Below, one piece after another: positions 2,544 through 23,571 of a stretch of DNA of 64,000 nucleotides. The first letter of the stretch is position 1; the number at the start of each line of letters is the position of its first letter. Origin of the DNA: Desulfosoma sp. (GTDB lineage Bacteria > Desulfobacterota > Syntrophobacteria > Syntrophobacterales > DSM-9756); contig JBBFKY010000006.1 in assembly GCA_037481875.1 (NCBI GenBank), forward strand, positions 124,001-188,000, read 5' to 3'. A model generated the notes under the pieces. That model made no database searches. It was given only the letters and a program-made list of their open reading frames with translations, and had not been told where the DNA came from. The translations under genes were made by a program, and so were the position numbers.

Positions 2544-2758
2544 GCTTTGGAATGTGAAAAATAGTTCTTGTAGGAATGACCGTTCCCCATCTTCGCTCTC
2601 GTCATTGCAAGGTTTGGAATAGGCAGATTGCTCACGGCGTGTCAACAGGCATATCGCCTGTTTGGACCGTGGTGAATAGTGGGCGCCTCAAAGGGCGCGT
2701 AAGCCTCTGAGGGCAAGCCCAAAGGCTGATCTTTAACGAGTACATGAAGGAGGAAGCT

Positions 2759-4596: not shown

Positions 4597-5487
4597 ATGT
4601 CCGCGAAACTCATTAAAGGGGCGGAAGTCGCCAAACAGATTCGAGAAGAACTGGCCGAAGAGGTCAAACGCATAAAAGAAAAGTACGGTGTCGAACCGGG
4701 CCTTGTCACCATCTTGGTAGGGGAAAACCCGGCGTCTCAGAGCTATGTGAGGGCCAAGCAAAAAGCGGCCCATGAACTGGGCTTCTATTCGGTCCAGGAC
4801 AATCAGCCGGCGGATATTTCCGAGGATGCCCTTTTGGCCCTTATCGACAAATACAACAAGGATCCTAAGATCGACGGAATCCTGGTGCAGTTGCCTTTGC
4901 CCAAGCATATCGATGAAAACAAAGTGCTCTACGCCATCGATCCCGGCAAAGATGTGGACGCCTTTCACCCCTTTAACGTCGGCAAACTCATGATCGGTCA
5001 ACCCGATTATCTCCCTTGCACACCCGCAGGCATTCAGGAACTCCTGATCCGCTCAGGAACGGAAACCTCCGGTGCCGAAGTGGTGGTCATCGGTCGTTCC
5101 AACATTGTGGGGAAACCCATTGCCGTCATGATGATGCAAAAGGGTAAGGGCGCCAACGCCACGGTCACTGTGTGCCATACTCGCACGAAGGATGTGCAGT
5201 TCCACACGAAACGGGCTGACATTCTCATTGTGGCCGCAGGGGTCACGGAATACGTCAAAGGCGATTGGATCAAACCGGGCGCTGTGGTCATTGACGTAGG
5301 TGTCAACGAAGTGGGCCAGACGGCCGACGGTAAACGAATCCTCAAAGGCGATGTGGCTTTTGACGAAGCCAAGGAAGTGGCGAGCGCCATCACGCCTGTT
5401 CCCGGAGGCGTAGGCCCCATGACCATTACCATGCTCATGAAAAACACGGTGCGAGCCTGCAAAGTCCATCACAACATCAAGGACTAA
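4597..5487 (+). CDS. folD: Methylene-THF dehydrogenase / methenyl-THF cyclohydrolase
   Basis: Bifunctional enzyme interconverting 10-formyl-, 5,10-methenyl- and 5,10-methylene-THF with NAD(P). It has 296 residues, the usual length. Motifs include SYVRAKQKAAHELG (substrate site, catalytic Lys in the YxxxK arrangement), DGILVQLPLPKHID, and the Rossmann-type GRSNIVGKPIAVMM. PGGVGPMTITMLMKNT near the C-terminus is the FolD signature. An AAAGGAGGG ribosome-binding site precedes the ATG. It follows fhs, so steps one to three of the methyl branch are together. Confidence 0.97.
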   Translation: MSAKLIKGAEVAKQIREELAEEVKRIKEKYGVEPGLVTILVGENPASQSYVRAKQKAAHELGFYSVQDNQPADISEDALLALIDKYNKDPKIDGILVQLPLPKHIDENKVLYAIDPGKDVDAFHPFNVGKLMIGQPDYLPCTPAGIQELLIRSGTETSGAEVVVIGRSNIVGKPIAVMMMQKGKGANATVTVCHTRTKDVQFHTKRADILIVAAGVTEYVKGDWIKPGAVVIDVGVNEVGQTADGKRILKGDVAFDEAKEVASAITPVPGGVGPMTITMLMKNTVRACKVHHNIKD

Positions 5488-6011: not shown

Positions 6012-6422
6012 TTAATCCTTAAGCGGGCTCGGCCCTAAAGCACGAACCTTTTCCACCATGGTCTTCGCTGCGTCCACAAATTCCTGGCCTTTTCCGGCCA
6101 TCATGTGAAAAAGGGCGACTCGATCGGCTTCCAGGCCGAGCTTTCCTAGCATGTCCTGAACGTACTTCACCTTCTTCTGGGCTTTTTCAACGCCGTGTTT
6201 ATACTGGCAACTGTCCGTCTGGCATCCCGCCACATAGACGCCGTCGGCCCCGGCTTCCAAAGCTTTCAGAAGGTGTAGGCTGTCCAGCCGACCCGTGCAC
6301 GGGAGCTGAATAACCTTAACGTTGTCAGGAAGGGTCAGCCCCATTTTTTCAGAAATCTGGGCGGCCGACGAGGCACAGTTAGCACAGCAATACGCGATGA
6401 TTTGCGGTTCAAAGGCGCTCAT
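6012..6422 (-). CDS. mvhD: MvhD/FlpD-family iron-sulfur protein (Cys form)
   Basis: Small [2Fe-2S] adaptor that passes electrons between HdrA and a hydrogenase, formate dehydrogenase or other partner. The 136 residues include IIAYCCANCASSAA, PCTGRLDSLHLLKALEAGADG and VAGCQTDSCQYKHG, the family's cysteine positions. The ATG at 6422 has AAGGAGTGGTCCA in front. It is the last gene of the minus-strand hdr cluster, 46 bp after the second hdrA. A paralogue at 20459-20902 carries selenocysteine where this one has the third Cys of CCANC. The partner enzyme is not encoded nearby, so the electron source is unknown. Confidence 0.92.
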   Translation of the reverse strand: MSAFEPQIIAYCCANCASSAAQISEKMGLTLPDNVKVIQLPCTGRLDSLHLLKALEAGADGVYVAGCQTDSCQYKHGVEKAQKKVKYVQDMLGKLGLEADRVALFHMMAGKGQEFVDAAKTMVEKVRALGPSPLKD

Positions 6423-6468
6423 TGGACCACTCCTTGTCATCTGTTTCTTCAAGCCGCGAACCCGGTCC

Positions 6469-9234
6469 TCACTGCACGGCGGATCCCAAAAGGCTCCGGG
6501 CCATGGCAGCAATGTGGTCATCACTTAACCGTCGATAGGAAATCGCCTTGCCTGGGCATTCACTGACACACATGCCGCATCCCTGGCACAATCCTGGGTC
6601 GATGAAGGCATGGCCTTGAGGGCTGTCGATAAAGGGGATATGGAACGGGCACGTGCGCACACAAGTGAGGCATACGGCGCATTTGTCTGGATCCACTTCC
6701 GCCACGGCACCTCCAACGAGCATCATATCTTGGCTGAGAAGACGCATGGCGCGCGCCGCCGCCGCCCAGCCTTCCGCAAGGCTTTCTTCCACCGGCTTTG
6801 GAGCCAGAGCCAGGCCGGCAAAAAAGACACCCTCCGTCTCGCCGTCCACAGGTCGCATCTTGGCAGGGGATTCAGCAAAGAAGCCGTCCGTGTCCAAAGA
6901 AACTTTATAAATGGCGGCTAGATTCGATGCTTCTGCAGGGATGATGGCCGTCTGCAGGGAAATGAAATCGGGCGTCAGCGCGATGGGACGGCCAAGAATA
7001 GGATCCGTGACCACAACTTTGAGTTGTCCGTTTTCCACACTGACTTGAGGCTTGGAATCCAGGTCGTATCGAATAAAAAAGACACCTTTTTCTCGGGCTT
7101 CTTTATAGATTCTTTCCCTTTCACCAAAGGTGCGCACTTCGCGGTACAGGACGTAAATGTCCATGTCCGGATTTTTGGCCTTGAGATCGATGGCGGAGCG
7201 GACCGCAAAGGTGCAACAGAGTCGGCTGCAATAGGGACGTTCCGGTTCTCGGCTTCCCACGCACTGGATAAAGACGCCGCATTTGGCGGAAGCAAAGGCG
7301 TTGGGATCATCGATGGTTTTCTTGGTAAAATCACTCCAGCGATAGATTTCCGGATGCTGTCCGTAGGCATATTCTTGCGGCTTCAGAGAATGGGCTCCCG
7401 TGGCCAAAACCACAACGCCATGTTCCACTTCTTTCTTCTGGCCACCCTGCAACACAGTGGTGATGTAATTGCCGGCAAAGCCTCGAGCCCCCACTACCTC
7501 AGCGGAGGTCAGCACAGTGATTTTTGGATTTTGAGAAACCTTGTCGATGGTGGCTTTGAGCAGGTCCTGGACCGATTCCCCTTTCCAAGCGGATCGCACT
7601 TTGTGTGCGTGGCCTCCCAAGCGTTCCTTCTTTTCCACCAAGGTCACCGGGACGTCCAGTTCCGCAAAGGCTAAAGCCGCTTGCATGCCGGCCAGCCCGC
7701 CTCCGACGACCAAAGCAGACTTCTTTACCGGAACTTTTGTATAGGTCAAAGGTTCCAGCATGCGAGCTTTGAGCACGGCGGTTCGAAAGAGGTTTTCCAG
7801 TCGAGGCATCTCCACAGCCGTTGTGCCGAGGGCGCGCAGGTCCACGAATTCGTAAAGGCTCGGATTCAGACCTGCTTCCTTCATGGCGCCTTCAATAAGT
7901 TCCTGGTGCATGATGGGGGTGCAGCTGGCATACACGAGACGGTTAACCCCTCCGGATTTGATGCGTTCGGCAAGGCGTCCGAGGGCCGCTGCGTCCTGAA
8001 GGTCCAAACGCTCCACAAACGAAACTCCAGGAAGACCCTTGACGAAATCGGCCAAGGGATTCAGAAGGGCTTCAAATTCAGGCAGCTTGGACGGGCACAG
8101 GCTCAACACCACGCCCACAGCCGGTGTTTCTCCTCGCACATCACGAAATTCCGGGACGGCTCCGTTTCCGGAGACACCTTTGAGCATGGCCGATGCTTTG
8201 CCGGCGGCGGCGGCAGCTTCCACCACGCTTTGATGGACGTCTCGTGGTCCCCCGGCACCGCCGCAAACAAAGACGCCGGGTACATTGGTTTCACAGGGTT
8301 TAAAGGTTTCCGAAGCCACATAATGATCTTCCGAAAGGGACACCCCCAACATCTTGGCCAGCCCTTCCAATTCCGCGGAAGGACGCAGACCTACGGAAAG
8401 CACGACAAGGTCGAAAGTCTCCGTCTGTTTAAGCCCGTTTTCGTCCACGTATTCCAAAACAAGATCCTCGGTGCCGGCTGCCCTTTCAATGCTGTGAATG
8501 CGGCTGCGCACTAAGCGTACGCCCTTTTCCTTGGCCTGATCGAAGTACCGCTCGTAGCCTTTACCGTGAGTGCGCATGTCCATGTAGAAGATGGTGGTTT
8601 CGGCGTCTGGAAGGGCATCCTTGAGCTGCACGGCTTCTTTCAAAGCGTACATGCAGCAAACGGAGGAACAATAGGGAGCATCACATTTATTGATTTCACG
8701 GGATCCCACACACTGCAGCCATGCCACCTTTTTGGGAGGTTGTCCGTCGGAAGGCCGTTTGGGAACACCCTGAAAAGGCCCTACGGGTTTTTGAAGCCAT
8801 TCCAGCTCGATGCTGGTCACCACGTTTTCAAAGGCCGCGTAAGCATAGGTGTCATAGGCCTGAGGATCGAATGGTTCCACACCTAAGGCCAAAATCACCG
8901 CCTGCGCCTGAATGGGCGTTTCTCCGGCAGGCCCTTTGATGACGGCCTGAAAAGCCCCGGTGGAACCTGAAATACTGGCGACACTGGATTCCGTCCAGGC
9001 ACGAATGTTGGGATCGAGTTTGCAGAGGATTGCCCGATTGGCAGCCTTACAGCAGCTGCACAGAGGATAAAGCCGATGGAGTTTGGCGACTGTGCCTCCC
9101 AGCTCTCTTTCCTTTTCCACCAGATCCACGTGGTAGCCTTGGGCCGCCAGGTCCAAAGCGGCGTTCATTCCAGCAACCCCGCCTCCAACTACCAGGACAT
9201 TGCCTTTGTTCTTTTTTTCTTGTGTTTGTGTCAT
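6469..9234 (-). CDS. HdrA-like iron-sulfur flavoprotein (double HdrA module)
   Basis: Heterodisulfide-reductase subunit A-like protein of 921 residues, longer than the ~650-residue methanogen HdrA. It holds two FAD modules: GGGVAGMNAALDLAAQGY near residue 17 and GGGLAGMQAALAFAELDV near residue 520. Each is followed by a CVGSRE...CCMY/CCTF cysteine segment. The C-terminus has two [4Fe-4S] ferredoxin motifs, CAVCLTCVRTCP and CQGCGMCVSECPG. The start at 9234 follows GAGGGG; an in-frame extension to 9303 lacks a ribosome-binding site. With the larger HdrA upstream and mvhD downstream it probably forms one electron-confurcating or bifurcating complex; QmoB-like behaviour is an alternative. Confidence 0.9.
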   Translation of the reverse strand: MTQTQEKKNKGNVLVVGGGVAGMNAALDLAAQGYHVDLVEKERELGGTVAKLHRLYPLCSCCKAANRAILCKLDPNIRAWTESSVASISGSTGAFQAVIKGPAGETPIQAQAVILALGVEPFDPQAYDTYAYAAFENVVTSIELEWLQKPVGPFQGVPKRPSDGQPPKKVAWLQCVGSREINKCDAPYCSSVCCMYALKEAVQLKDALPDAETTIFYMDMRTHGKGYERYFDQAKEKGVRLVRSRIHSIERAAGTEDLVLEYVDENGLKQTETFDLVVLSVGLRPSAELEGLAKMLGVSLSEDHYVASETFKPCETNVPGVFVCGGAGGPRDVHQSVVEAAAAAGKASAMLKGVSGNGAVPEFRDVRGETPAVGVVLSLCPSKLPEFEALLNPLADFVKGLPGVSFVERLDLQDAAALGRLAERIKSGGVNRLVYASCTPIMHQELIEGAMKEAGLNPSLYEFVDLRALGTTAVEMPRLENLFRTAVLKARMLEPLTYTKVPVKKSALVVGGGLAGMQAALAFAELDVPVTLVEKKERLGGHAHKVRSAWKGESVQDLLKATIDKVSQNPKITVLTSAEVVGARGFAGNYITTVLQGGQKKEVEHGVVVLATGAHSLKPQEYAYGQHPEIYRWSDFTKKTIDDPNAFASAKCGVFIQCVGSREPERPYCSRLCCTFAVRSAIDLKAKNPDMDIYVLYREVRTFGERERIYKEAREKGVFFIRYDLDSKPQVSVENGQLKVVVTDPILGRPIALTPDFISLQTAIIPAEASNLAAIYKVSLDTDGFFAESPAKMRPVDGETEGVFFAGLALAPKPVEESLAEGWAAAARAMRLLSQDMMLVGGAVAEVDPDKCAVCLTCVRTCPFHIPFIDSPQGHAFIDPGLCQGCGMCVSECPGKAISYRRLSDDHIAAMARSLLGSAVQ

Positions 9235-9493
9235 ACGGTTCCCCTCAACTCTTTGATGGCTCAACGGACAAAAAACACCCCCCCTTCGGGGCGGCATACC
9301 CATGCGACGCCTATCACCCTAAGGCGGCTGGCGAAGAAAAAGGCTCTTGTTCCGGCCTATGGTTGAAGGTTCGATGCTCCATGTTGCGGGTAAATGATCC
9401 ACAAGACACGTTCCTTCTATGTGAAAAAAGAGGCAACGTCAAGTTTCATTCTTGTTGTGGACCGGGAAAACAGACGGCTTTCTCTTTTCTTTT

Positions 9494-12400
9494 TTAAGCG
9501 CCCTGGGAATCCTGGCAGACGGCGGCGACGGCTTTATGGATCAACTGAACATCCGTAAAGTGCTGCAGCTGAATGGCTTTCCCCGGGCATTCAGCGACAC
9601 AAGCACCGCATCCCTGGCATTTGGCCGGGTCAATGTAAGCTGAGCGGCGAACCGATGTGGTAGGGGTCACCACCACAGGGACTTCATAAGGACAGGTACG
9701 CACACAGGTAAGGCAGACGGCGCATTTGGCCGAATCCACCACAGCGACGCGACCGCCTACGAAAAGCTGTTCTTTACTGAGCACGGTAGCGGCTCGAGCC
9801 GCCGCTCCCTTGGCCTGGGCGATGGATTCCTCGAGGAATTTGGGACTGTGAGCTAAGCCGCAGAGGTAGAGCCCCGGAGCGGCGAAATCCAAGGGTCGAA
9901 GTTTCACGTGGGCTTCCATGAAAAAGCCGTCGGCGTCTGTGCTGAGCTTAAACAATCCGGCCACCTCCGAATTGGAAGCCCTGGGCACGATCGCGGCGCT
10001 CAGAACCAGAAGATCGCATCGAAGCTGTATGTTTTCCTTCAGGTTTTGGTCAAACACGCGAATGTGCACGGCGTCTTCTTCAAAAGTCACCTGAGGCTTT
10101 TGTTCCGGCTGATACCTTAGAAATCGAACCCCGGCTTCCCGCGCCTTTCGGTATAGAAGTTCTCGAGTGCCAAAGGTTCGAATGTCTCGGTAAAGAATGG
10201 AGACATGAGCTTTAGGATTCTTTTCTTTGATCCTCAAAGCGTTGGCCACAGCCGCTGTACAGCACACACGACTGCAGTAGGGTCGCTCTTCGTCTCGAGA
10301 CCCCACACATTGAATCATGACCACGTGGGAGCTTTTCTCTATGGTGTCCGGGTGTTCAGCGAGAATTTTTTGCAATTGCAACTGGGTGACCACTCGAGGA
10401 TCCGCCCCGTAACCGTATTCCTTCGGTTGGTATTCTTCGGCGCCTGTCGCGACCACCAAAGCCCCGTACTCCAGGATCTTCTCGCCTTGAGGAGTCTTGG
10501 CTCGGCTGATAAAGTGCCCGGCATGGCCTTCAAAGGAAGTGATTTCCGAGGCCGTGAGAACCTGGATGTTGGGATGGTTGAGCACGGTTTCCACGGCTTG
10601 GGCCACGGCTTTGGTGACATCGACGCCGCTTGGATGAAAACGCATCCAGGCCCGTGCCTGTCCTCCAAGTTCCGGTTCCCGTTCCACCAGGAAGGTAAAA
10701 AACCCCTGGTCGGCCAAATAACGCGCGGCCGTCATTCCCGCCATACCGCCGCCGAGCACCAGAGCTTTTTGGGTCACCGGCACCGGCATTTCATGCAGGG
10801 GTTCAAGAAAGAGTGCTTTAGCCACGGCCATGCGCACCAGGTCTTTGGATTTTCTTGTGGCTTCTTCCGGCGTCGTGCCGTGAACCCATGAACACTGATC
10901 TCGAATATTGGCCATTTCAAACAGATATTTGTTGACTCCGGCTTCCCGCAGGCATTCCTGGAACAAGGGTTCATGGGTTCGAGGTGAGCAGGAGGCCACC
11001 ACGACACGGTTGAGGTTTTTTTCCTGAATGATCTTTTTGATTTTTTCCGTGGAATCCGTCGAACAGGTGAAAAGCAGGTCTTCTGCATGAACCACGTTGG
11101 GCAAAGTAGCGGCATAGTCGGCCACGGCTTTCACATTCACCACACCGGCAATATTGATACCGCAATGACACACGAAAACCCCAATGCGTGGAATATCTCC
11201 GGGCATGGAACGTTCTTGGACGTTCATGGGAGGTGTGGTTCGAGTGTGACGGGCTGACGCAAGTAAGCATTGGGCTGAAGCGGCCGCTGCGCTGGCCTGA
11301 GCCACGGTTTCCGGAATGTCCTTGGGGTCGGTGCTCACGCCGCAGGAAAACACGCCGGGCTGCGAAGTCTGGATGGGATCCAGCGGTTCCGAAACGATGA
11401 ACCCGAATCGATCCACGGCGGTTTGGAGACACTGAGCCGTTTCTTTGGCCTCGTTTGTCACCGAGAGCCCCACGGACAGAACCACCATGTCAAAAATTTC
11501 CTTTTGTAGAGTGTTGTTTTCGTCCACGTAGGAAATTTCCAGATTGTGGCCGTCGACGGTTTCCACCAATCGGCTGATTTGGCACCGCACATAGCGCACA
11601 CCATGCTGCGATTCAGCTCTTTGCCAGTACCTTTCGAAACCTTTTCCCATGGCCCTCAGGTCGATATAGAAAATGGTGGTTTCCACGTCGGGCTCATGAT
11701 CCTTGGTCACGATAGCCTGTTTGGTGGCGTACATGCAGCAAACACTGGAACAGTAATCCTTGCCGATGGACGCATCCCGGGATCCCACACACTGAATCCA
11801 TGCGATCCTTTGAGGCACCTCGCCGTCGCTGGGTCGCCGCACATGCCCGCCCGTGGGACCCGAAGCGGCGAGAATGCGTTCATATTCCAAACTGGTGATG
11901 ACATTAGGATAACGCCCGTAGCCGTATTCGGCTTTTTGAGCCGCATCAAAGGGGCTGAAGCCGCACGCGTAAAGAATAGCCCCAACTTCCACGGTTTCAT
12001 CTCGGGGCATCATGTTGTGATCGATGGCCTGCGGCAGACACGCATCCACACAGCGGTAGCATTCGCTGCACACTCCGCACTGAAGGCACCTTTGCGCTTC
12101 GGCCCGAGCTGTTTCTTCATCAAAGCCCAACTGGACTTCCTGAAAAGAATGAATTCGTTCCTTGGCGTCCAAGCGAGGCATCTCGAATCGAGGCACTTTT
12201 CGAACGGGTTTTTCCGGGCATGGTGCCGTGCGGCTTGGAGTCCATCGGCCTTCCCTCAAATCCACGCCTCGAAGATATCGATCGATCGATACGGCCACCT
12301 CTTTGCCGGCGGCGATGGCCTGTACCACGGTGGCGGGTCCCGATGTCACATCTCCACCGGCAAAAACACCCGGTCGATTCGTTTCATAGGTCACAGGATC

Positions 12401-13975
12401 CACCACAAAGGTTCCCCAGCGACTGACCAAGGGGCGGCTTTCCGGATCCATAGCCTCGATGACCGCGGGATCGGTCATGAGCCCCACAGCGGCGATGACA
12501 CTATCGATCTGTACCTGGTATTCAGATCCCGCCACGGGAATCGGACGGCGTCTTCCACTTTCGTCCGGCTCTCCCAATTCCATACGAATGCATTCAATGG
12601 CTTTCACATGCCCTTCCGCATCCCCATGGACGGCCACCGGAGCCGCCAGAAAATGCATCTGGACCCCTTCGTGCAGGGCCTCTTCCACTTCTTCCGGATT
12701 GGCCGGCATTTCTTCACGGCTTCTGCGGTAAAAGAGATGGACTTCGTCCACTCCCAATCGTAAACAGGATCGAGCCACATCCATAGCGCAGTTGCCGCCT
12801 CCGATCACCGCCACCTTACGGCCGACGGGCGGCCTTTGGCCGCTATTGAGTAATTTGAGAAAGCTTGTTCCGGTGTAAACTTCGCGAAGATTTTCGCCGG
12901 GTATATTGAGTTTCAGGTCTGTTTGAGTGCCGATGGCCAGAAAGAACGCTTCGTAGCCTTCTCGGCGAAGGTCTTCCAGCTGAAAGTCTTTTCCCAGAGC
13001 GGTATTGGTACGAATGGTCACTCCGAGCCTTTGAATGTATTCGATCTCCGCCCGGAGCACATGGCGGGGCAGGCGGTACTCGGGAATTCCGTAGCGTAAC
13101 CATCCTCCAGGCTCCGGCATGGCCTCAAAGATGGTCACACTATAGCCTTCCAAGGCCAGATAGTAGGCGGCCGTCAATCCGGCGGGGCCAGCTCCGATGA
13201 TAGCCACACGTCGTCCGTTGGGTTCCTTTCGTGGAGGCAAAGGCCCCGGGCCTGTTTTGGCTTCCCAGTCAGCCACAAACCTTTTCAGAAAATCGATGGC
13301 GACGGGTTCATCCACGGATCCTCGATTACACACGGTTTCGCATGGATGATGGCACACACGGCCGCACACCGCCGGCAAAGGATTATCTTTGCGAATAAGA
13401 TCCAAAGCTTCCTGGTACCGGCCTTGAGCAATGAGGGCGATATAGCCCTGGACACTGATCCCCGCGGGACAGGCCGCTTTGCAAGGCGCCATGCCTTTTT
13501 TGTCAATGGCGAAGGTGGAAGGGATGGCCTGAGGAAAATGACGATAAATGGCTTTGCGGGTGTTGAGCCCCTGATTGAATTCGGCCGGAATTTCCACGGG
13601 ACATACGCGCAAACATTCTCCGCAGGCTGTGCAGCGGTCTTCCAGCACATAGCGAGGTTCACGCCGCAATGTCACCTGAAACCGCCCTGGTTCACCTTCC
13701 AAACGGATGACGTTGGTGCGTGTGAGAATATCGATATTGGGATGGCTGGCCACTTCGATAAGTTTTGGCGAAATCATACAGGTGGAACAATCGTTGGTGG
13801 GAAAGGTCTTATCCAGTTTGGCCATGTTGCCGCCGATACTGATATCCTTTTCCACCAGCAGGACACGAAAACCGCTGTTGGCCAAATCCAGGCTTGCCTG
13901 CATACCCGCAATGCCGCCTCCAATGACCATAACCGAACCGTTGACGGACCCCGAGAATGTCGATTGCGCGCTCAT
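9494..13975 (-). CDS. hdrA: HdrA-GltD-HdrA triple flavoprotein fusion
   Basis: A 1,493-residue iron-sulfur flavoprotein. Approximate order: HdrA FAD motif GGGIAGMQASLDLANSGF (~19), ferredoxin motif CTACGECLRVCP (~113); GltD-like section with CKAACPAGISVQGY (~160), FAD motif GAGPAGLTAAYYLALEGY (~258) and NAD(P)-type GGGNCAMDVARSCLRLG (~390); CLQCGVCSECYRCVDAC (~632); HdrA segment CVGSRDASIGKDYCSSVCC (~727); second full HdrA with GGGMAGMTAARYL (~1072), CVGSRDEERPYCSRVCC (~1222) and two C-terminal [4Fe-4S] motifs (~1418, ~1452). The GltD part, as in glutamate synthase small subunit and NfnB, suggests direct NAD(P)H input to the Hdr core. GGGAGGCGTC precedes the ATG. No frameshift is seen across the gene. 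Confidence 0.93.
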   Translation of the reverse strand: MSAQSTFSGSVNGSVMVIGGGIAGMQASLDLANSGFRVLLVEKDISIGGNMAKLDKTFPTNDCSTCMISPKLIEVASHPNIDILTRTNVIRLEGEPGRFQVTLRREPRYVLEDRCTACGECLRVCPVEIPAEFNQGLNTRKAIYRHFPQAIPSTFAIDKKGMAPCKAACPAGISVQGYIALIAQGRYQEALDLIRKDNPLPAVCGRVCHHPCETVCNRGSVDEPVAIDFLKRFVADWEAKTGPGPLPPRKEPNGRRVAIIGAGPAGLTAAYYLALEGYSVTIFEAMPEPGGWLRYGIPEYRLPRHVLRAEIEYIQRLGVTIRTNTALGKDFQLEDLRREGYEAFFLAIGTQTDLKLNIPGENLREVYTGTSFLKLLNSGQRPPVGRKVAVIGGGNCAMDVARSCLRLGVDEVHLFYRRSREEMPANPEEVEEALHEGVQMHFLAAPVAVHGDAEGHVKAIECIRMELGEPDESGRRRPIPVAGSEYQVQIDSVIAAVGLMTDPAVIEAMDPESRPLVSRWGTFVVDPVTYETNRPGVFAGGDVTSGPATVVQAIAAGKEVAVSIDRYLRGVDLREGRWTPSRTAPCPEKPVRKVPRFEMPRLDAKERIHSFQEVQLGFDEETARAEAQRCLQCGVCSECYRCVDACLPQAIDHNMMPRDETVEVGAILYACGFSPFDAAQKAEYGYGRYPNVITSLEYERILAASGPTGGHVRRPSDGEVPQRIAWIQCVGSRDASIGKDYCSSVCCMYATKQAIVTKDHEPDVETTIFYIDLRAMGKGFERYWQRAESQHGVRYVRCQISRLVETVDGHNLEISYVDENNTLQKEIFDMVVLSVGLSVTNEAKETAQCLQTAVDRFGFIVSEPLDPIQTSQPGVFSCGVSTDPKDIPETVAQASAAAASAQCLLASARHTRTTPPMNVQERSMPGDIPRIGVFVCHCGINIAGVVNVKAVADYAATLPNVVHAEDLLFTCSTDSTEKIKKIIQEKNLNRVVVASCSPRTHEPLFQECLREAGVNKYLFEMANIRDQCSWVHGTTPEEATRKSKDLVRMAVAKALFLEPLHEMPVPVTQKALVLGGGMAGMTAARYLADQGFFTFLVEREPELGGQARAWMRFHPSGVDVTKAVAQAVETVLNHPNIQVLTASEITSFEGHAGHFISRAKTPQGEKILEYGALVVATGAEEYQPKEYGYGADPRVVTQLQLQKILAEHPDTIEKSSHVVMIQCVGSRDEERPYCSRVCCTAAVANALRIKEKNPKAHVSILYRDIRTFGTRELLYRKAREAGVRFLRYQPEQKPQVTFEEDAVHIRVFDQNLKENIQLRCDLLVLSAAIVPRASNSEVAGLFKLSTDADGFFMEAHVKLRPLDFAAPGLYLCGLAHSPKFLEESIAQAKGAAARAATVLSKEQLFVGGRVAVVDSAKCAVCLTCVRTCPYEVPVVVTPTTSVRRSAYIDPAKCQGCGACVAECPGKAIQLQHFTDVQLIHKAVAAVCQDSQGA

Positions 13976-14036: not shown

Positions 14037-14891
14037 TCAAAGCCCAACGGAAGTGAGTACGGGCTCACCATCCACTATATGGCGTTTGAGCCAGTCTCGA
14101 GCGCTGCGTTCTCCAAGTGCAAGGCCGATGAGGTCTGTGAAGTAAAACACGGGTATGGGCATGGTGAGCCCCTGTTGATGGAGAATGCGGTTTTGGTACA
14201 TGTCCAGATTGGCATGGCACATTTGGCAAGAAACCACGATGCAATGAGCGCCCTGGTCGGAAGCCCTTTTGAGAAGCTTGCCCACCAAGGCTATGACCAG
14301 GTCCTGCCGAGCCACCGCGTGGCTGGCGCCGCAACAGTCGGTCTTGTATGGCCAATCGAGAACCTCCACCCCCACGGTTTCCAACAGACGATCCATATTC
14401 GTCGGGTTTTCCCATGCTTGCGCATCGGTGATTTTGGGTGGTCGGTTCACCATACATCCATAATAACATACCGCCCGAAGACCCGTTAGGGGACGAACGA
14501 CTTTCCGCGCCAATTCTTCCAGGATGGAAGGCTGACAGAAATACTCCACCAGATCCCAAACACGAACCGGAACTTCCCCTTCGGCCAAAGGATCCCGAGA
14601 TGCCTTTTTCTTCAAGGCTTTTTCGGCTGTTTTCAATCGGTTATAGCAAAGGGCGCACGGTGCCGTAAGATCACTCAGTCCCTGCTCTTGGGCCAGAAGA
14701 AGATTTCGTGCCGGTAACGCCACCGAAAGTTCTTGGTCTAGACTGTGAGCCGCCGTAGCTCCACAACAGTTCCAATCGTCCAGCTCGATAAGTTGAATGC
14801 CCAGCACGCGACAAACGCCCTCAATGGATTCGGCATAATCGCGCGCCGTTCCTTCCAAAGAACATCCGGGATAGTAACCCACGGAAAACAT
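14037..14891 (-). CDS. hdrB: HdrB-like subunit (two CCG domains)
   Basis: Catalytic-type subunit of heterodisulfide-reductase-like complexes, where two CCG domains hold non-cubane [4Fe-4S] clusters. The 284 residues show both sets: YYPGCSLEG, DDWNCCGATAAHS, CALCYNRL; then CYYGCMVN, DCCGASHAV, CQMCHANLD. The ATG at 14891 follows AAAGGAGTGGTT; in-frame upstream sequence overlaps hdrC and is rejected. It lies between hdrC (20 nt gap) and the giant hdrA. Its substrate in bacteria without CoM/CoB is not known and may be a small disulfide or only an electron relay. Confidence 0.94.
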   Translation of the reverse strand: MFSVGYYPGCSLEGTARDYAESIEGVCRVLGIQLIELDDWNCCGATAAHSLDQELSVALPARNLLLAQEQGLSDLTAPCALCYNRLKTAEKALKKKASRDPLAEGEVPVRVWDLVEYFCQPSILEELARKVVRPLTGLRAVCYYGCMVNRPPKITDAQAWENPTNMDRLLETVGVEVLDWPYKTDCCGASHAVARQDLVIALVGKLLKRASDQGAHCIVVSCQMCHANLDMYQNRILHQQGLTMPIPVFYFTDLIGLALGERSARDWLKRHIVDGEPVLTSVGL

Positions 14892-14911
14892 AACCACTCC
14901 TTTGTGAGGGA

Positions 14912-15532
14912 TCAGGAAGATACCGAAGAGTTCTTTGCTTCGGGGGATTGCATAGGTTTTTGAAAATGGCGCTGCAAATCCGACATTCGGCGTATGCCGT
15001 GGGCTCGCAAAGGCAGTCGGCCTCGACGCCATAAGGCGAGACCCAAGCGAATTTCATCCCAGAAGGTGCCTTCTTTAAGTTTGGCTTTCCAGGCACCGCT
15101 GGAAAGCATGTAGCGTTGTAGAAGCCCGGTTTCAAAGATGCGACCGCGTCGACCGATGTCGCTGAGAAAAGCTTCGTGAAAGGCATAGGTCAGGTTAGCC
15201 CTCGGGTCCACGAGACCTCTGGCATGGGCCTGTTGTTTGAGGTAGTCCATAAGGCCGGCGATGTCGATATCGTTCGGGCATCGTGTGGTGCAGGTTTCAC
15301 AGGAGGAACAGACCCAGATGGTGGCGCTGGAAAGAACTTTTTCTTCCAGACCCAAAAGCAGATAGCGCACAATCTGATCCGGATAATAGTCCATGGCAAA
15401 GGTCAGAGGACACCCGCTGGTGCATTTGCGGCACTGGTAACACAATTCCGGCTGTATGCCGCTTAAAGCCGACACCCGCTGCGTCGCATCGTAGTTGGGT
15501 TCCAAAAAGGTTTCTTCCACCACGTGCTCCAT
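14912..15532 (-). CDS. hdrC: HdrC-like ferredoxin subunit
   Basis: Small electron-transfer subunit that links HdrA to HdrB. The 206-residue protein carries two [4Fe-4S] motifs, CYQCRKCTSGCPLTF and CSSCETCTTRCPNDIDI, then an alpha-helical tail. The ATG at 15532 is preceded by GGAGGTGGCT; in-frame sequence further upstream would run through a hairpin terminator and is unlikely to be translated. The short 14-nt space between that terminator and the start codon means hdrC is read only by readthrough or anti-termination from the upstream GcvH-like gene, unless a promoter overlaps the hairpin. Confidence 0.94.
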   Translation of the reverse strand: MEHVVEETFLEPNYDATQRVSALSGIQPELCYQCRKCTSGCPLTFAMDYYPDQIVRYLLLGLEEKVLSSATIWVCSSCETCTTRCPNDIDIAGLMDYLKQQAHARGLVDPRANLTYAFHEAFLSDIGRRGRIFETGLLQRYMLSSGAWKAKLKEGTFWDEIRLGLALWRRGRLPLRAHGIRRMSDLQRHFQKPMQSPEAKNSSVSS

Positions 15533-15546
15533 AGCCACCTCCAGGC

Positions 15547-15580
15547 AAAAAAAAGAGAACGGAACACACGTTCCGTTCTC
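15547..15580 (-). terminator. Rho-independent terminator/attenuator just before hdrC
   Basis: On the minus strand an 11-bp perfect stem GAGAACGGAAC/GTTCCGTTCTC with loop GTGT is followed by eight T. It lies between the GcvH-like gene and hdrC and its T run ends 14 nt before the hdrC ATG. It should reduce hdr transcription relative to the first gene. Confidence 0.85.
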
Positions 15581-15636
15581 GTCAGGGGAACACTTCAGCG
15601 CTTTCAAAGACGCCTAGGCTCGCAGGAACGTTTTTT

Positions 15637-16545
15637 CTAAGGCGCAAGAAACTCCGCCACCAGTTGATCCCACTTGAGGTGCGGCACGCTGCCATAAATG
15701 TCCTCAACCACCTCACCACCGGTGGCCGCCAAAGGCAGCTCGCTTTCCGGAGCCACCAGGGCTTCCAACCGGTGCACTTCGGCGCTGAGCCAGGTTCGAG
15801 CAGCCTGGTCGGCGTACAGTTCCGTCAGTTCTTTCTTAAGATGGCGCGGCTCCACAACCACGAGCCACCCATCCCCGTAGGGATCCTCCTTAACAATCCG
15901 AGGGTTCTCCACGGCTTTGTGGTTCACTGCAACGACCACGCCGTCCAAAGGGGCTACAAAAGGCGCAATCTTTTCTTCTCGCCGGAACGTCCATGCCGTA
16001 ACATTCCTTTCCACATGAACGCCTAACTTGGGTAACCGAACATGGGTAATATATCCTAACAAGTGCATGGTGAAATCATCAACCCCAAAACGCACCAATC
16101 CTCCATGTTCGACGCGAGCCCACGTGTGGCGTGGATGGTAATAGTAGCCGTCAGCCATCAAGAATCCCGAAACGCGCTCCAACTTAGGCACCCCAAGCAC
16201 CTCGGTCATGGTGCGGTGTTCCAGGATCTGATCAAATTCACAGGTGGCGCATTCATAGGCATTCCCGCAGGAACGCACCGGTACCCGCCCCGTGATCATG
16301 TGCCGACATTCCTTCTGGGCATAAACTTTTTCTTGATATTCGGAGCGCCATGATTGAAACTGAGGCTCAAGGGTTTCCAACCTTCGGGACATGGCCTTGT
16401 CAAAGGAACACGTGAGGCAATCATAAGCGTTGTCACACAGCTTGAAGTTGATCACACCGGCCTTCATCCACACACAGGGATGGTCCCCCTCAAGACCGAA
16501 AACCCGAACCCTGGCTTTTTTGTCGTGAATCGATGTCACCTTCAT
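15637..16545 (-). CDS. GcvH-like protein with duplicated Cys motif
   Basis: A 302-residue protein. The N-terminal third has two copies of a cysteine motif, CDNAYDCLTCSFD and CGNAYECATCEFD, each preceded by another Cys about 12 residues earlier, which suggests metal or Fe-S binding. The second half resembles glycine cleavage H protein (HPRHTWARVE..., then WTFRREEKIAPFVAPLDG). Counting back from the conserved P..G, the lipoyl-lysine position holds Glu, with Lys one residue later, so lipoylation is doubtful. A perfect ribosome-binding site (AAAGGAGGTTAT) and a sigma-54 promoter precede it. First gene of the hdr unit; a carrier or regulatory role is inference. Confidence 0.75.
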   Translation of the reverse strand: MKVTSIHDKKARVRVFGLEGDHPCVWMKAGVINFKLCDNAYDCLTCSFDKAMSRRLETLEPQFQSWRSEYQEKVYAQKECRHMITGRVPVRSCGNAYECATCEFDQILEHRTMTEVLGVPKLERVSGFLMADGYYYHPRHTWARVEHGGLVRFGVDDFTMHLLGYITHVRLPKLGVHVERNVTAWTFRREEKIAPFVAPLDGVVVAVNHKAVENPRIVKEDPYGDGWLVVVEPRHLKKELTELYADQAARTWLSAEVHRLEALVAPESELPLAATGGEVVEDIYGSVPHLKWDQLVAEFLAP

Positions 16546-18352: not shown

Positions 18353-19701
18353 TGGCAGGGCGTTTCAAAATCCTTGTGGTGGATGACGAACTGATTGTTC
18401 GGGAATCTCTGGTAGCCTGGCTCAAAAAGGGAGGATACCAGGTGGCGGCCGCCTCGGGAGGTCGCGAAGCCTTGGAGAGTGTGGAAAGAGCCGCCTATGA
18501 TTTGATCTTCTTGGACATCAAGATGCCGGATATGAACGGCATCGACGTCCTCAAAGAAATCAAGCAACGTTACCCCGGCACAATGGTGGTCATGATCACC
18601 GCCTATGGTTCTGTGGAAAGTGCGGTGGAAGCCATGAAGCTGGGTGCCAACGATTACCTCATGAAACCCTTTGAACCGGAACAGCTGGCCCTATTGGTGG
18701 AAAAGCTGCTGCAGCACAAAAAGCTCATCGACGAAAACATTCTCCTTCGAGAACAAATCGCGACGGCGGCTGTGGAACGTTACCAGGACATGATCGGCGT
18801 GTCCCCGGCCATGCAGGCCCTGTTTGATATGCTCGAAAGAGTTGCCTCCGTGGATTCTCCGGTGCTCATCAAGGGCGAAACAGGAACCGGAAAGGAACTG
18901 GTGGCCAAGGCCATTCATGCGCGCAGCCCGCGCCGTTACGCTCCCTTTATCGCCATCAATTGCGGCGCCTTCACGGAAACCCTTTTGGAAAGCGAACTTT
19001 TCGGACATGAGGTGGGCTCCTTTACGGGAGCCGTCAAGGCGAAAAAGGGACGGCTGGAACTGGTGCGCGGCGGCACCCTTTTTCTGGATGAGGTGGGCGA
19101 GATTCCCATGAAAATGCAGGTGGATCTGTTGCGCGTGTTGGAAGAACATCGAATGCATCGAGTCGGAGGGACTCGTGACATTCCCGTGGATTTTCGCCTC
19201 ATTTCCGCAACCCATCGGGACCTGGTCAAGGCCATCGAGGAAGGCTCTTTTCGTCGCGATTTTTACTTTCGGCTCAACGTGGTGGAGCTGGAAGTGCCTC
19301 CGCTTCGAGCGCGCCGAGAAGATATTCCCATTCTCGCTGATTTTTTCCTGCGCCGCTTTCGAAAAGAAACCAATAAGCCTGTGGAAGGCCTGGATAAGAA
19401 AGCCGTGGATCTACTGTGTTCTTATGATTGGCCCGGCAATGTACGAGAACTGGAAAACGCGGTGGAAAGGGCTGTGGTGCTGGCTCAGGGAAGGATTCTC
19501 ACCGAAGAGGATTTCGCCTTCTTGAAAAAAACAACGGGGGGTGTGGAACCCAGGTCCTTGGAAGAGATGGAAAAGTTTCATATTCAGAGGATCTTGAACC
19601 AGTGCCGCGGAAACATCAGCCAAGCGGCACGCATTCTCAAGATCAACCGCACGACGCTGCACCATAAAATCAGAAAATACGGGCTGCAGGGGAACACGTG
19701 A
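18352..19701 (+). CDS. NtrC-family sigma-54-dependent response regulator
   Basis: A 449-residue regulator: receiver domain with phospho-acceptor Asp55 (FLDIKMPDMNG), AAA+ sigma-54 interaction domain (~145-375) with Walker A GETGTGKE and Walker B GGTLFLDEVGE, then a Fis-type helix-turn-helix (GNISQAARILKINRTTLHHKI). The sigma-54 contact loop reads GSFTGA rather than the commoner GAFTGA; both are found in active members. It is translationally coupled to the kinase. A sigma-54 promoter on the opposite strand in front of the GcvH-hdr unit is the obvious target. Confidence 0.95.
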   Translation: MAGRFKILVVDDELIVRESLVAWLKKGGYQVAAASGGREALESVERAAYDLIFLDIKMPDMNGIDVLKEIKQRYPGTMVVMITAYGSVESAVEAMKLGANDYLMKPFEPEQLALLVEKLLQHKKLIDENILLREQIATAAVERYQDMIGVSPAMQALFDMLERVASVDSPVLIKGETGTGKELVAKAIHARSPRRYAPFIAINCGAFTETLLESELFGHEVGSFTGAVKAKKGRLELVRGGTLFLDEVGEIPMKMQVDLLRVLEEHRMHRVGGTRDIPVDFRLISATHRDLVKAIEEGSFRRDFYFRLNVVELEVPPLRARREDIPILADFFLRRFRKETNKPVEGLDKKAVDLLCSYDWPGNVRELENAVERAVVLAQGRILTEEDFAFLKKTTGGVEPRSLEEMEKFHIQRILNQCRGNISQAARILKINRTTLHHKIRKYGLQGNT

Positions 19702-20303
19702 AGGCCGCCGAGGACCTTGAGGGTTTTGCCCAGAGGCGGTCTGAGGCCGCCGTTGGCATTGTGCCCATAGGAGACGTGGGGGAAGCGGCGGTGCGTATGG
19801 TGGCCGCCAATCTTCAGGCGGTGCTCGGGTTAGCGGTCACGAGGCTGGAGCGTCAAGCCGTCCCTGAGGCTTGTTACGTTGTTGAGCGCCGTCAATACGA
19901 TGCCTCCAAGCTCATCGCCCACCTTCAGGAATGGAGTGCGCCCCTGCCGTACAGGAAAATCCTTGCCGTTTTGTCCGTGGACTTGGGAGTTCCCATTTTA
20001 CGGTATGTTTTCGGGGAAGCCCAGGTGGGGGGACGCTGCGCCGTAGTTTCCGGGTTTCGACTGCGCCGCAATCCGGACGGCACAGATGTGAGCCTGGACC
20101 ATTACTATGAAAGACTGGCCAAGGTGGCCCTTCATGAAACGGGACATACCTTTTCCCTTTTTCACTGTGATGATTCACGGTGCCTCATGCATTTTGCCCC
20201 CACTGTGGAACGCCTGGACCGAATTCGGCTTTTTTTTTGTTCCCGCTGTGATTTTTTGTGGAAAGAGACCCGTAAAAACCTGATCTTAGCGCATCCCGAA
20301 TGA
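19698..20303 (+). CDS. amzA: Archaemetzincin-like zinc metalloprotease
   Basis: Predicted zinc protease of 201 residues. The metzincin site reads HETGHTFSLFHC, giving the three zinc histidines and catalytic Glu, followed by the archaemetzincin-specific second zinc site formed by Cys in FHCDDSRCLMHF and FFCSRCDF. The usual Gly of HExxHxxGxxH is replaced by Ser. It starts with GTG overlapping the regulator stop (GTGA), so it is coupled to a sigma-54 regulator. The substrate is unknown for bacterial members. The link to the two-component system is seen in the sequence; its meaning is not known. Confidence 0.88.
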   Translation: MKAAEDLEGFAQRRSEAAVGIVPIGDVGEAAVRMVAANLQAVLGLAVTRLERQAVPEACYVVERRQYDASKLIAHLQEWSAPLPYRKILAVLSVDLGVPILRYVFGEAQVGGRCAVVSGFRLRRNPDGTDVSLDHYYERLAKVALHETGHTFSLFHCDDSRCLMHFAPTVERLDRIRLFFCSRCDFLWKETRKNLILAHPE

Positions 20304-20458: not shown

Positions 20459-20902
20459 ATGAGTGACTTTCAACCGAGAATCGTGGCTTTTTGTTGCATG
20501 TACTGAGCCTACACGGCAGCGGACCTGGCAGGTTCGATGAGGCTCAATTATCCGCCCAACGTGCGCATCGTGAATGTGCCGTGTACGGGGCGCGTGGACA
20601 TGATTCATTTGTTGAAAGCCATCGAGACGGGAGCCGACGGGGTGTATGTGGCCGGCTGCATGGAGGGGGAATGCCATTTCCGCAATGGCAATATCAAAGC
20701 CAAGCGGAGAGTGATGGCGGTCAAAAAGATTTTGCAGGACATTGGACTGGAGCCGGAACGTGTGGAAATGTTTAACGTATCGGCGTCCGATGGCCCAAGG
20801 TTTGCGGCCATAGCGCGTGAGATGACGGAGCGGATTCGAGCCCTCGGCCCCAGCCCTTTGCGGGGGTCCGAGGAATGTGTGTCGTGGATGGAAGCCGTGT
20901 GA
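20459..20902 (+). CDS. mvhD: MvhD-family selenoprotein (in-frame UGA = Sec)
   Basis: A 147-residue [2Fe-2S] adaptor protein in which UGA at 20504-20506 (codon 16) replaces the third cysteine of the CCxxC motif: AFCCMY-U-AYTAAD here against AYCCANCASSAAQ in the paralogue at 6012-6422. Alignment before and after the UGA is gapless, continuing PCTGRVDMIHLLKAIETGADG and VAGCMEGECHFRNG. A stem-loop starts at the UGA. Selenocysteine in VhuD of methanogens is established precedent. The ribosome-binding site is weak (GAG six bases before the ATG), so coupling to a short upstream frame is possible. First gene of the metVF operon, so it likely feeds electrons to methylene-THF reductase. Confidence 0.9.
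20504..20546 (+). promoter_or_regulatory. Putative bacterial SECIS stem-loop
   Basis: The UGA opens a hairpin: TGAGCCT (20504-20510) pairs perfectly with AGGCTCA (20540-20546), and an apical GGACCT-GGC-AGGTTC stem-loop places the loop about 20 nt after the UGA, the distance usual for bacterial SelB-binding elements. Folding was judged by eye. Confidence 0.75.
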
Positions 20903-21033: not shown

Positions 21034-21705
21034 ATGGTTGTTGCCGAAAGGAAACCCATCGAGGAAATCCTTGCGATGGTAGCCGACTTTAAGAAGGTGT
21101 TGCTGGTCGGCTGCAAGGGGTGCGTGACGGTCTGTTGTGCCGGAGGCACCAAGGAAGTGGGCATCTTGGGATCCGCGCTTCGGATTGCCAGGAAAAAAGA
21201 AGGGCGTCCGTTGGAGGTTGTAGAACACACGTTGGAGCGTCAGTGTGATCCCGAGTATGTGGATCAGCTGGCTCCTATGCTCAAGGACAATGGTTTTGAT
21301 GCGGTTTTGTCCATGGCCTGCAGCGTCGGCCCTCAGTTCATCGCCAAGAGGTACACCATTCCCGTGTACCCCATGTTGAACACCACCTTCATCGGCGGTG
21401 CTCTGGAACACGGTGTCTGGGCGGAATTCTGTCAATCCTGTGGCAACTGTATTATCCACAACTTCGGCGGCTTGTGTCCCATTGCGCGTTGCTCCAAGAG
21501 CCTCATGAACGGGCCGTGCGGAGGATCCGCCAACAAGAAATGTGAAGTGAGCCCGGAGATCGACTGTATTTGGCATTTGATCTACGACCGCATGGTGGAA
21601 CTCGGACAATTGGAGAAGCTCCGCCCCGTGTTTCCCATCAAGGATTGGTCCACGAGCCGCGATGGTGGTCCTCGTAAGATCGTGAGGGAGGATTTGAAAC
21701 TATGA
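21034..21705 (+). CDS. metV: MetV, zinc/iron-sulfur partner of methylene-THF reductase
   Basis: A 223-residue subunit that pairs with MetF in acetogens and related anaerobes and links it to ferredoxin or Hdr proteins. Many cysteines are present: CKGCVTVCCAGGTKEVG at the start, CSVGPQF in the middle and CQSCGNCIIHNFGGLCP with CPIARCSKSLMNGPCGG and KKCEV near the end. Start ATG follows GGGAGGGAAGGATTT; in-frame extension upstream is rejected. Its stop overlaps the metF start (ATGA). Gene order mvhD-metV-metF supports an MvhD-MetVF electron path. Confidence 0.93.
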   Translation: MVVAERKPIEEILAMVADFKKVLLVGCKGCVTVCCAGGTKEVGILGSALRIARKKEGRPLEVVEHTLERQCDPEYVDQLAPMLKDNGFDAVLSMACSVGPQFIAKRYTIPVYPMLNTTFIGGALEHGVWAEFCQSCGNCIIHNFGGLCPIARCSKSLMNGPCGGSANKKCEVSPEIDCIWHLIYDRMVELGQLEKLRPVFPIKDWSTSRDGGPRKIVREDLKL

Positions 21706-22628
21706 AAGCCGGAAGCAACCTGGAGAAAGTTTTTACTCAAGGGCATTTCGCAGTCACTGGTGAGTTGGGTCCTCCTCGCGGCGCTTCAGTCGAAGTCATT
21801 GAAAAGAAGGCTGGTTATTTGCGCGGTGTGGTGGATTCCATCAACGTGACGGACAACCAAACCTCGGTGGTGCGTATGTCCAGCGTGGCGGTTTGCAAGC
21901 TGCTGGTGGACATGGGCCTGGAACCCAACCTGCAGATGGTGTGTCGGGACCGCAACCGCATCGCCATGCAAAGTGATCTTCTTGGAGCCTATGCGCTGGG
22001 CATTCGAAACGTCCTGTGTCTTTCCGGAGACCACAACCGCTTCGGGGATCATCCGCAATCCAAAAACGTCTTTGACGTGGATTCCATGCAACTGATCAGC
22101 ATCGTGAAAAAACTTCGGGATGAAGGCAAGATGCTGAGCGGGCAGGAATTGGAAGGGGTGCCCAAATTTTTCATCGGAGCGGCCGCCAACCCCTTTGGGG
22201 ATCCTTTTGAATTTCGAGTGACTCGGTTGGCCAAGAAAATCGATGCCGGAGCGGACTTCATTCAAACCCAGTGCATCTACAACATGGAAAAATTCAAAAA
22301 ATACATGCACATAGCTCATGAAGAAGGGCTCACCGAAAAGTGCTACATCATGGCGGGGATCACTCCTTTGAAATCCGTCGGTATGGCTCGTTATATGGCC
22401 AATTTCGTGCCCGGTCTGGATGTGCCCGAATATTACATCAATCGTCTGAAGGGCGTGGACAAGAAGAAGCAGGCGGATGAAGGCATCAAGATTGCTGTGG
22501 AGCAGATTCAGGAGGTTCGGGAAATCCCAGGAGTCAAGGGCATTCACCTGATGGCCATCGAATGGGAACACAAGGTGCCCGAGATCTTGCAGGCGGCCGG
22601 ACTGCTGCCAAGGCCTTCCGTGAACTGA
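21702..22628 (+). CDS. metF: 5,10-methylene-tetrahydrofolate reductase
   Basis: FAD-containing TIM-barrel enzyme converting methylene-THF to methyl-THF, or the reverse when acetate is oxidised. 308 residues, typical for the short MetF that works with MetV. The N-terminal VTGELGPPRGASVEVIEKKA holds the catalytic Glu region, and CLSGDHNRFGDHP is the flavin-site segment. DAGADFIQTQCIYNMEKF and AGITPLKSVGMARYM are further family motifs. Translationally coupled to metV and followed by a strong terminator. It lacks the N-terminal NADH-binding features of MTHFRs with their own NADH site, in line with use of an external electron carrier. Confidence 0.95.
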   Translation: MKAGSNLEKVFTQGHFAVTGELGPPRGASVEVIEKKAGYLRGVVDSINVTDNQTSVVRMSSVAVCKLLVDMGLEPNLQMVCRDRNRIAMQSDLLGAYALGIRNVLCLSGDHNRFGDHPQSKNVFDVDSMQLISIVKKLRDEGKMLSGQELEGVPKFFIGAAANPFGDPFEFRVTRLAKKIDAGADFIQTQCIYNMEKFKKYMHIAHEEGLTEKCYIMAGITPLKSVGMARYMANFVPGLDVPEYYINRLKGVDKKKQADEGIKIAVEQIQEVREIPGVKGIHLMAIEWEHKVPEILQAAGLLPRPSVN

Positions 22629-22727: not shown

Positions 22728-22757
22728 TTGACACAAGGGTAGGCTGGCGAATAGGAT
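22728..22757 (+). promoter_or_regulatory. Promoter of cooC
   Basis: TTGACA (22728-22733), 18-bp spacer, TAGGAT (22752-22757), about 55 bp before the cooC start and after the metF terminator. Confidence 0.6.
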
Positions 22758-22812
22758 GTTTCTCTGGATCCAAAAAGGGAAAACATGGGCGCACAAGAAG
22801 GAGGAGTCTTCC

Positions 22813-23571
22813 ATGGGTTTAACGGTGGCGTTTGGAGGCAAAGGGGGTACGGGCAAGACAACCCTCGCCGGCCTCTTGATTCGATATCTGATTGAAAAAG
22901 GAATGAAGCCCGTCTTGGCGGTGGATGCGGATTCCAACGCAAACCTCAATGAGGTCTTGGGGGTTCGTCTGGAGGAAACCCTATCCCAAGCCAGGGAGAT
23001 GATGAAAAAGGATGTGCCTACGGGTATGACCAAGGACATCTTCATGGAAATGAAAGTGGAACAAGCCTTGGTGGAAGGTGACGGGTTCGACCTCATCGCC
23101 ATGGGCCAGCCTGAAGGACCCGGCTGTTATTGCGCAGCCAATAATCTGTTGGCGAGCCTTCTTGACCGCCTGATGAAAAACTACCAGTACCTGGTTATTG
23201 ACAACGAAGCCGGCATGGAACATTTCAGTCGTCTCACCCAAAAGGATGTGGATGTACTGATGCTGGTTTCCGATCCCAGCCGTCGAGGCTTAACGGCTGC
23301 TTGTCGCATTTCGGAACTGGTGGATTCCTTGCCCATGAGGGTGGGTAAGAAGATTCTTGTGGTCAACCAAGTTCAGGAACCCATAGCGTGGCCCGAAGAA
23401 GTGGTGAAAGTCTTTTCCAACGGAAATATTTATACCATACCTGCGGATCCACTGTTGGTTCAGTTCGACATGGAAGGGAAACCCACCAGCCGGCTTCCCA
23501 AGGATTCCAAAGTGGTGCAGGCGGCTTGGGCTCTGTTTGACAAAGTGCTTCAAGAGCAAAAGCCGGCTTGA
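22813..23571 (+). CDS. cooC: CooC-like CO dehydrogenase maturation ATPase
   Basis: MinD/ParA-type ATPase that helps insert nickel into the C-cluster of carbon monoxide dehydrogenase. 252 residues with the deviant Walker A motif [16 protein letters not shown] at the N-terminus, [16 protein letters not shown] (switch I), the CooC-type nickel-binding CxC ([12 protein letters not shown]) and [13 protein letters not shown]. The ATG has AAGGAGGAGTCTTCC before it. No CODH gene is in the window, but the surrounding Wood-Ljungdahl genes fit a role in CODH/acetyl-CoA synthase assembly. Confidence 0.92.

Follow-up and report, generated by a model that had tools for sequence, protein, structure and literature searches.

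A mid-gene UGA in mvhD beside metV and metF of Desulfosoma sp. almost certainly encodes selenocysteine

The 64,000-nucleotide stretch of the Desulfosoma sp. genome analysed here (the window) contains, beside metV and metF, an mvhD gene that is real and easy to mis-annotate. Judged from sequence, its product is almost certainly made with selenocysteine (Sec). We consider it very probable that SelB and tRNA-Sec(UCA) decode the in-frame UGA at 20504 and that the product is a Sec-MvhD adaptor of an Hdr/MetVF reductase. A mid-gene UGA accompanied by an almost unchanging RNA hairpin occurs in more than two dozen bacterial families.

An in-frame UGA in mvhD

On the plus strand the gene starts at ATG 20459, carries an in-frame TGA at 20504-20506 and ends with the stop TGA 20900-20902 (Table 1). 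Read with the inner TGA as U, the product begins MSDFQPRIVAFCCMYUAYTAADLAGSMRLNYPP..., and M-x-x-F-E-P at the MvhD N-terminus is conserved among relatives. No strong Shine-Dalgarno sequence is visible ahead of ATG 20459. With the UGA read through, mvhD matches PF02662 (FlpD) at 176 bits against a cut-off of 22.3, covering profile positions 1-123 of 123, and it scores 160 bits on the VhuD model NF045873 (NCBIfam), below the curated cut-off of 215. The MvhD fold is already established by solved homologues: 7bkb (1e-42), 5odc (6e-40) and others align over nearly the full length and have Cys at the Sec site. Cys/Sec at positions 12, 13, 16, 42, 67 and 72 are invariant in the alignment of relatives (A1).

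A preliminary description of this DNA had placed the UGA at the third Cys of the CCxxC motif of an all-Cys paralogue in the same window (6012-6524, minus strand), and the comparison of FCCMYU with YCCANC agrees. The alignment with this paralogue is gapless on both sides of the UGA, as described, and pairs 408 nt with 136 residues. The table-11 ORF list also splits mvhD as anticipated for a gene caller, starting at Met 20537 and losing the Sec site. The observations of an in-frame UGA, a hairpin and a Cys in the paralogue are thus confirmed, and the interpretation of mvhD as a Sec gene is supported by our analysis; its "Sec/Cys [2Fe-2S]" part we infer from the family.

Table 1 Positions of mvhD, its predicted SECIS and neighbouring genes in the window.
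Feature	Position	Strand	Basis or remark
Sec-mvhD (FlpD/MvhD family), predicted	20459..20902	+	147 aa, Sec = residue 16; PF02662 match through UGA
Putative Sec codon UGA, C-M-Y-U = second position of CxxC	20504..20506	+	UGA/Cys comparison with relatives
SECIS stem-loop, whole (predicted)	20504..20546	+	UGAGCCU...AGGCUCA lower stem plus apical hairpin; RNAfold
Synonymously frozen block GCG GAC CTG GCA GGT TCG	20519..20536	+	Codon comparison of relatives
SECIS apical hairpin GGACCU-GGC-AGGUUC	20521-20535	+	15-mer and phylum pattern counts
metV (PF12225, methylene-THF reductase C-terminal type)	21034..21705	+	Profile match
metF (PF02219, methylene-THF reductase)	21702..22628	+	Profile match; 4-nt overlap with metV
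CooC/MinD-like ATPase, after metF	22756..23571	+	Same place in Desulfacinum loci L096, L098, L099
All-Cys MvhD paralogue (CCANC), hdr cluster	6012..6524	-	Window comparison
HdrA-like flavoprotein	6469..9303	-	Homologue directly 5' of mvhD in relatives
HdrA with internal GltD/NAD(P)H-type domain (HdrL-like)	9494..13975	-	Fer4_20, Pyr_redox_2
HdrB-like (CCG domain)	14037..15032	-	
HdrC-like ferredoxin	14912..15607	-	
fhs-like gene	2744-4522		Named from sequence
folD-like gene	4597-5487		Named from sequence

A SECIS hairpin tied to the UGA

RNAfold predicts a stable structure for the 45 nt from the UGA (-18.6 kcal/mol, z = -3.2), with 2 of 200 shuffles folding as low. In the predicted fold UGAGCCU pairs with AGGCUCA and encloses the apical hairpin. 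The hairpin that had been said to open at the UGA is therefore real, but its lower stem, which includes the UGA, is not kept in relatives. Since the RNAalifold consensus retains mainly the apical hairpin, we make no claim for the lower stem and dropped its covariation as support for the SECIS. A comparison with bacterial SECIS elements, suggested in the preliminary description, gave agreement on all four published points (PMC13188914). These are an upper stem of 4-16 bp, a loop of 3-9 nt with G in the first two positions, a distance of 16-37 nt from the UGA and an MFE <= -7.5 kcal/mol; the window element has a 6-bp upper stem, the loop GGC (or U-GG-C-A), a spacing of 20 nt and the energy given above.

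The 15-mer GGACCTGGCAGGTTC, at a distance of 17 nt from the first base of the UGA, is present in 63 of 64 distinct UGA copies and absent from all 40 distinct Cys copies among the relatives. The loci in this contrast were picked at the protein level and the SECIS was not used for selection; the Fisher value of 4e-28 ignores relatedness and so is not a probability. Codons +5 to +9 (GCG GAC CTG GCA GGT) are invariant in 25/25 UGA copies of the order, and in these same copies all 18 other degenerate codon columns with an invariant amino acid vary. In the non-redundant set, codon entropy ranges from 0 to 0.12 in the frozen block, and the lowest value among 39 other conserved columns is 0.66. The synonymous freeze of the five codons is confined to UGA copies. 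At the level of sequence, we regard the SECIS evidence as decisive.

The frozen SECIS also puts an AGG a few bases 5' of the conserved ATG 20537 (window 20528-20539), and ribosomes halted at the UGA might restart there. A search of the bacterium's own genome for the SECIS core at the same spacing, allowing up to 3 mismatches, returned one match elsewhere, at 3, which equals the rate of the reversed control. We therefore rejected the core as a general element of the selenoproteins of this genome.

UGA and Cys copies across the phylum

A search of 395 genomes of the phylum, from 246 genera, with a 32-nt pattern consisting of TGA, a spacer and a 17-mer gave matches in 98 genomes and 63 genera; the reversed version, used as control, had 0 matches. 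Among distinct relatives the Sec-site codon is UGA in 64 and TGT/TGC in 40, frequencies that are not population estimates because the relatives were partly chosen by patterns covering the CC-x-x-C motif region or the SECIS itself. All UGA copies conserve the CCxxU segment near the N-terminus, and it agrees with that of the Cys copies. Downstream of the UGA the frame is intact in all 25 copies of the order, all 45 taken from named genomes and all 30 sampled across the phylum, these last staying open for about 115 codons. The frame decay after TGA in close relatives that would have spoken against Sec, according to the preliminary description, was seen in none of the UGA copies inspected.

Exchanges between Sec and Cys within the MvhD family always concern the UGA codon of the window. 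The protein tree most parsimoniously implies five of them, at least two being forced by well-supported branches, though it is built on few columns and has many open forks. One MvhD copy (L156:2379-2420) has TGC at the Sec site with GACCTGGCAGGTTC still present, a probable relic SECIS left after a Sec-to-Cys change.

Selenocysteine machinery and other MvhD copies

The genome (3.4 Mb in 19 contigs, 99.6% complete) encodes selA (630 bits), selD (385 bits), canonical selB (416 bits) and a tRNA-Sec with the anticodon UCA. The set that the preliminary description had listed for a check is thus complete, and the absence of machinery that it had named as counter-evidence does not apply. The selD gene itself has one in-frame TGA. 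A second SelB (308 bits) adjoins a Sec-like tRNA-Cys (selC*).

This selC* locus (L036:9651-12849; C2:315650-318848) comprises the Sec-like tRNA-Cys, an all-Cys mvhD (FCCQWC), an ORF with no Pfam match and the second SelB, which shares 33% identity with the canonical SelB. The tRNA has a GCA anticodon, an 8-bp acceptor stem, a bulged A in a 4-bp T-stem and U73. No SECIS-like frozen block lies 3' of the UGU codon in this mvhD. Six other genomes of the order share the arrangement tRNA-Cys(GCA)-mvhD-selB*; selC* copies with a UCA anticodon have selB* and no co-directional mvhD.

The genome holds 14 FlpD matches. Some contain in-frame TAA/TAG, and other recoding was rejected for them: they have Cys at the Sec site, so their stops lie elsewhere. 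A second Sec-MvhD candidate (L025; C12:24072-24440) has its UGA at a different site, GUHLGECHY, where homologues have the motif GCHxGDCHY. Its hairpin UUACC-UGGAU-GGUAA, about 22 nt past the UGA, resembles the apical loop of the window SECIS.

Gene neighbourhood

In the window mvhD, metV and metF are adjacent and co-directional. After mvhD there is a 131-nt gap before metV, which has its own ribosome-binding-like site GGGAGGGAAGG. The link to these genes, noted at first for this DNA only, is general: 80 related loci contain metV in 72, metF in 68 and hdrA-type matches in 70-75 cases, and a second set of 30 loci has metV in 27 and hdrA in 29. Homologues of the fhs-like and folD-like genes also lie near mvhD in some relatives.

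The position of mvhD at the head of metV-metF, as first described, holds in this bacterium's family, where inversion and separation of the hdr genes leave mvhD as the first gene of the metVF unit. Most relatives instead show the order hdrA/gltD-hdrA-mvhD-metV-metF, with mvhD inside and not first, an arrangement that corresponds to the Moorella-type Hdr/MetVF methylene-THF reductase. In the window hdrA/B/C do not belong to the mvhD operon; they occupy the minus strand 5-14 kb upstream and have an all-Cys MvhD of their own. The same split occurs in Desulfacinum infernum and D. hydrothermale (L096, L099), whose hdr genes are inverted and set apart.

A two-component system and an archaemetzincin separate the hdr genes from mvhD in the family. 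The archaemetzincin-family protease gene (19698-20303) lies between the two-component system and Sec-mvhD, and is also present in the Desulfacinum loci L096, L098 and L099. A gene for a GcvH-like domain with a Cys-rich N-terminal part (15637-16545) adjoins hdrC where the hdr cluster ends and is conserved in the same three loci.

Proposed function and alternative explanations

We propose that canonical SelB and tRNA-Sec(UCA) would insert Sec at UGA 20504, guided by the SECIS hairpin whose apical loop GGACCU-GGC-AGGUUC lies 20 nt past the UGA. The product would be a Sec-containing MvhD that acts as [2Fe-2S] adaptor of an Hdr/MetVF-type methylene-THF reductase, with Sec16 most likely standing in for a cluster-ligand or cluster-adjacent thiol. 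MvhD would then serve as the electron link of MetVF (methylene-/methyl-THF) with an HdrA flavin. Its HdrA partner probably belongs to the hdr complex whose genes lie 5-14 kb upstream; this assignment is uncertain because these genes stand apart from the mvhD operon and come with a Cys-MvhD of their own. Pull-down with MvhD of Sporomusa ovata recovers HdrA, HdrB and MetF (PMC9430772). The proposal builds on the reading frame, SECIS, machinery, phylum-wide conservation and gene neighbourhood found in the DNA; from these we infer that the protein contains selenium, that Sec is a ligand of the cluster, which HdrA is the partner and which way the electrons flow.

The UGA could instead be a true stop or a pseudogene lesion, with a functional protein made from ATG 20537. 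A gene caller yields precisely this ORF and the AGG of the SECIS precedes its start, but the CCxxU segment is conserved in every UGA copy and matches the Cys copies, and the frozen SECIS and the intact frame in each copy inspected make this explanation extremely improbable. Decay in particular is refuted by the intact frames together with the SECIS tied to UGA copies. Decoding of the UGA as cysteine by the Sec-like tRNA-Cys and SelB* is highly unlikely as well. The genome does have the second SelB beside such a tRNA, and tRNA-Cys with UCA anticodons are proposed opal suppressors (PMC7609411); the selC* found here has a GCA anticodon, unable to read UGA, and for this reason we reject it as the decoder. 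In addition, a canonical tRNA-Sec(UCA) is available, and UGA with SECIS extends throughout the phylum while SelB* is present in only 10/39 genomes of the order.

Other alternatives accept Sec decoding and differ on its role. The UGA and SECIS may act mainly as a selenium-responsive switch, termination without Sec lowering metV-metF translation or mRNA. In this bacterium's family the metVF unit does begin with mvhD, whose UGA comes early, yet we give the switch a slight chance, as mvhD is not the first gene in most relatives, Cys copies exist and metV has a ribosome-binding-like site of its own. It is also conceivable, if rather unlikely, that Sec-MvhD is real and serves a formate dehydrogenase or hydrogenase, not MetVF. 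MvhD/VhuD is a shared adaptor that can serve Fdh and Vhu (PMC6019823), and the many FlpD matches in the genome fit such a role, but the adjacency of mvhD and metV in both sets of loci extends over many families. A Sec-MvhD serving MetVF and HdrA remains our preferred explanation.

For acetogens and for sulfate reducers that oxidise acetate, the question of which protein exchanges electrons with MetVF-type methylene-THF reductases is still open. Sec at the adaptor between MetVF and HdrA would mark this contact as redox-critical and offer a handle through selenium dependence and a Sec-to-Cys swap. In roughly one in four of the genomes sampled from the phylum, standard gene calls would cut MvhD short, so that its redox motif would be missing from annotations and from proteomics databases. 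With UGA and SECIS so closely coupled, a simple 32-nt search pattern finds these genes, with zero control matches.

Comparison with known systems

Sec-FrhD/MvhD proteins of Deltaproteobacteria have been known since 2006 (Zhang et al. 2006, PMC1794560). Syntrophobacter fumaroxidans has 8 Sec-FrhD/MvhD/VhuD, Desulfobacterium autotrophicum has Sec mvhD1,2,3,5 (PMC2702500) and Desulfococcus multivorans a Sec mvhD (PMC5109826). The window copy resembles the Sec-FrhD/MvhD/VhuD group (PMC1794560; PMC13188914) in its PF02662 domain, CxxU motif, UGA with bacterial SECIS and Deltaproteobacterial host. In the accessible text of these reports Sec-FrhD stands in hydrogenase/Hdr operons or metVF is unmentioned, whereas the window copy is tied to metV-metF.

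MvhD-MetVF complexes have been known since 2014, and HdrABC-MvhD-MetVF is described for Moorella thermoacetica and Sporomusa ovata (PMC9430772). As in these Hdr-type reductases, MvhD adjoins MetV and MetF, and HdrA homologues of the same long types lie upstream in the window's relatives. In contrast, the hdr genes are split onto the other strand in this lineage, and MvhD of the window has the predicted Sec while the Bacillota copies examined (L118, L142, L144, L175) have Cys.

The archaeal VhuD of Methanococcus (PMC2933860, PMC6019823) has its SECIS in the 3' UTR, unlike the window SECIS inside mvhD, and the window MvhD stays below the VhuD model cut-off (160 against 215 bits). This genome also has the selC*/selB* tRNA-Cys system (Mukai 2017, reviewed in PMC7609411), whose operon here includes an mvhD paralogue; its GCA anticodon leaves the window UGA out of reach. 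Within the accessible text of the open-access literature searched, we found no Sec-MvhD tied to MetVF, and the frequent use of Sec in MetVF-linked MvhD with a near-invariant SECIS is apparently unreported. Sec-MvhD itself is of a known kind; its generalisation across the phylum in MetVF-linked MvhD may be new.
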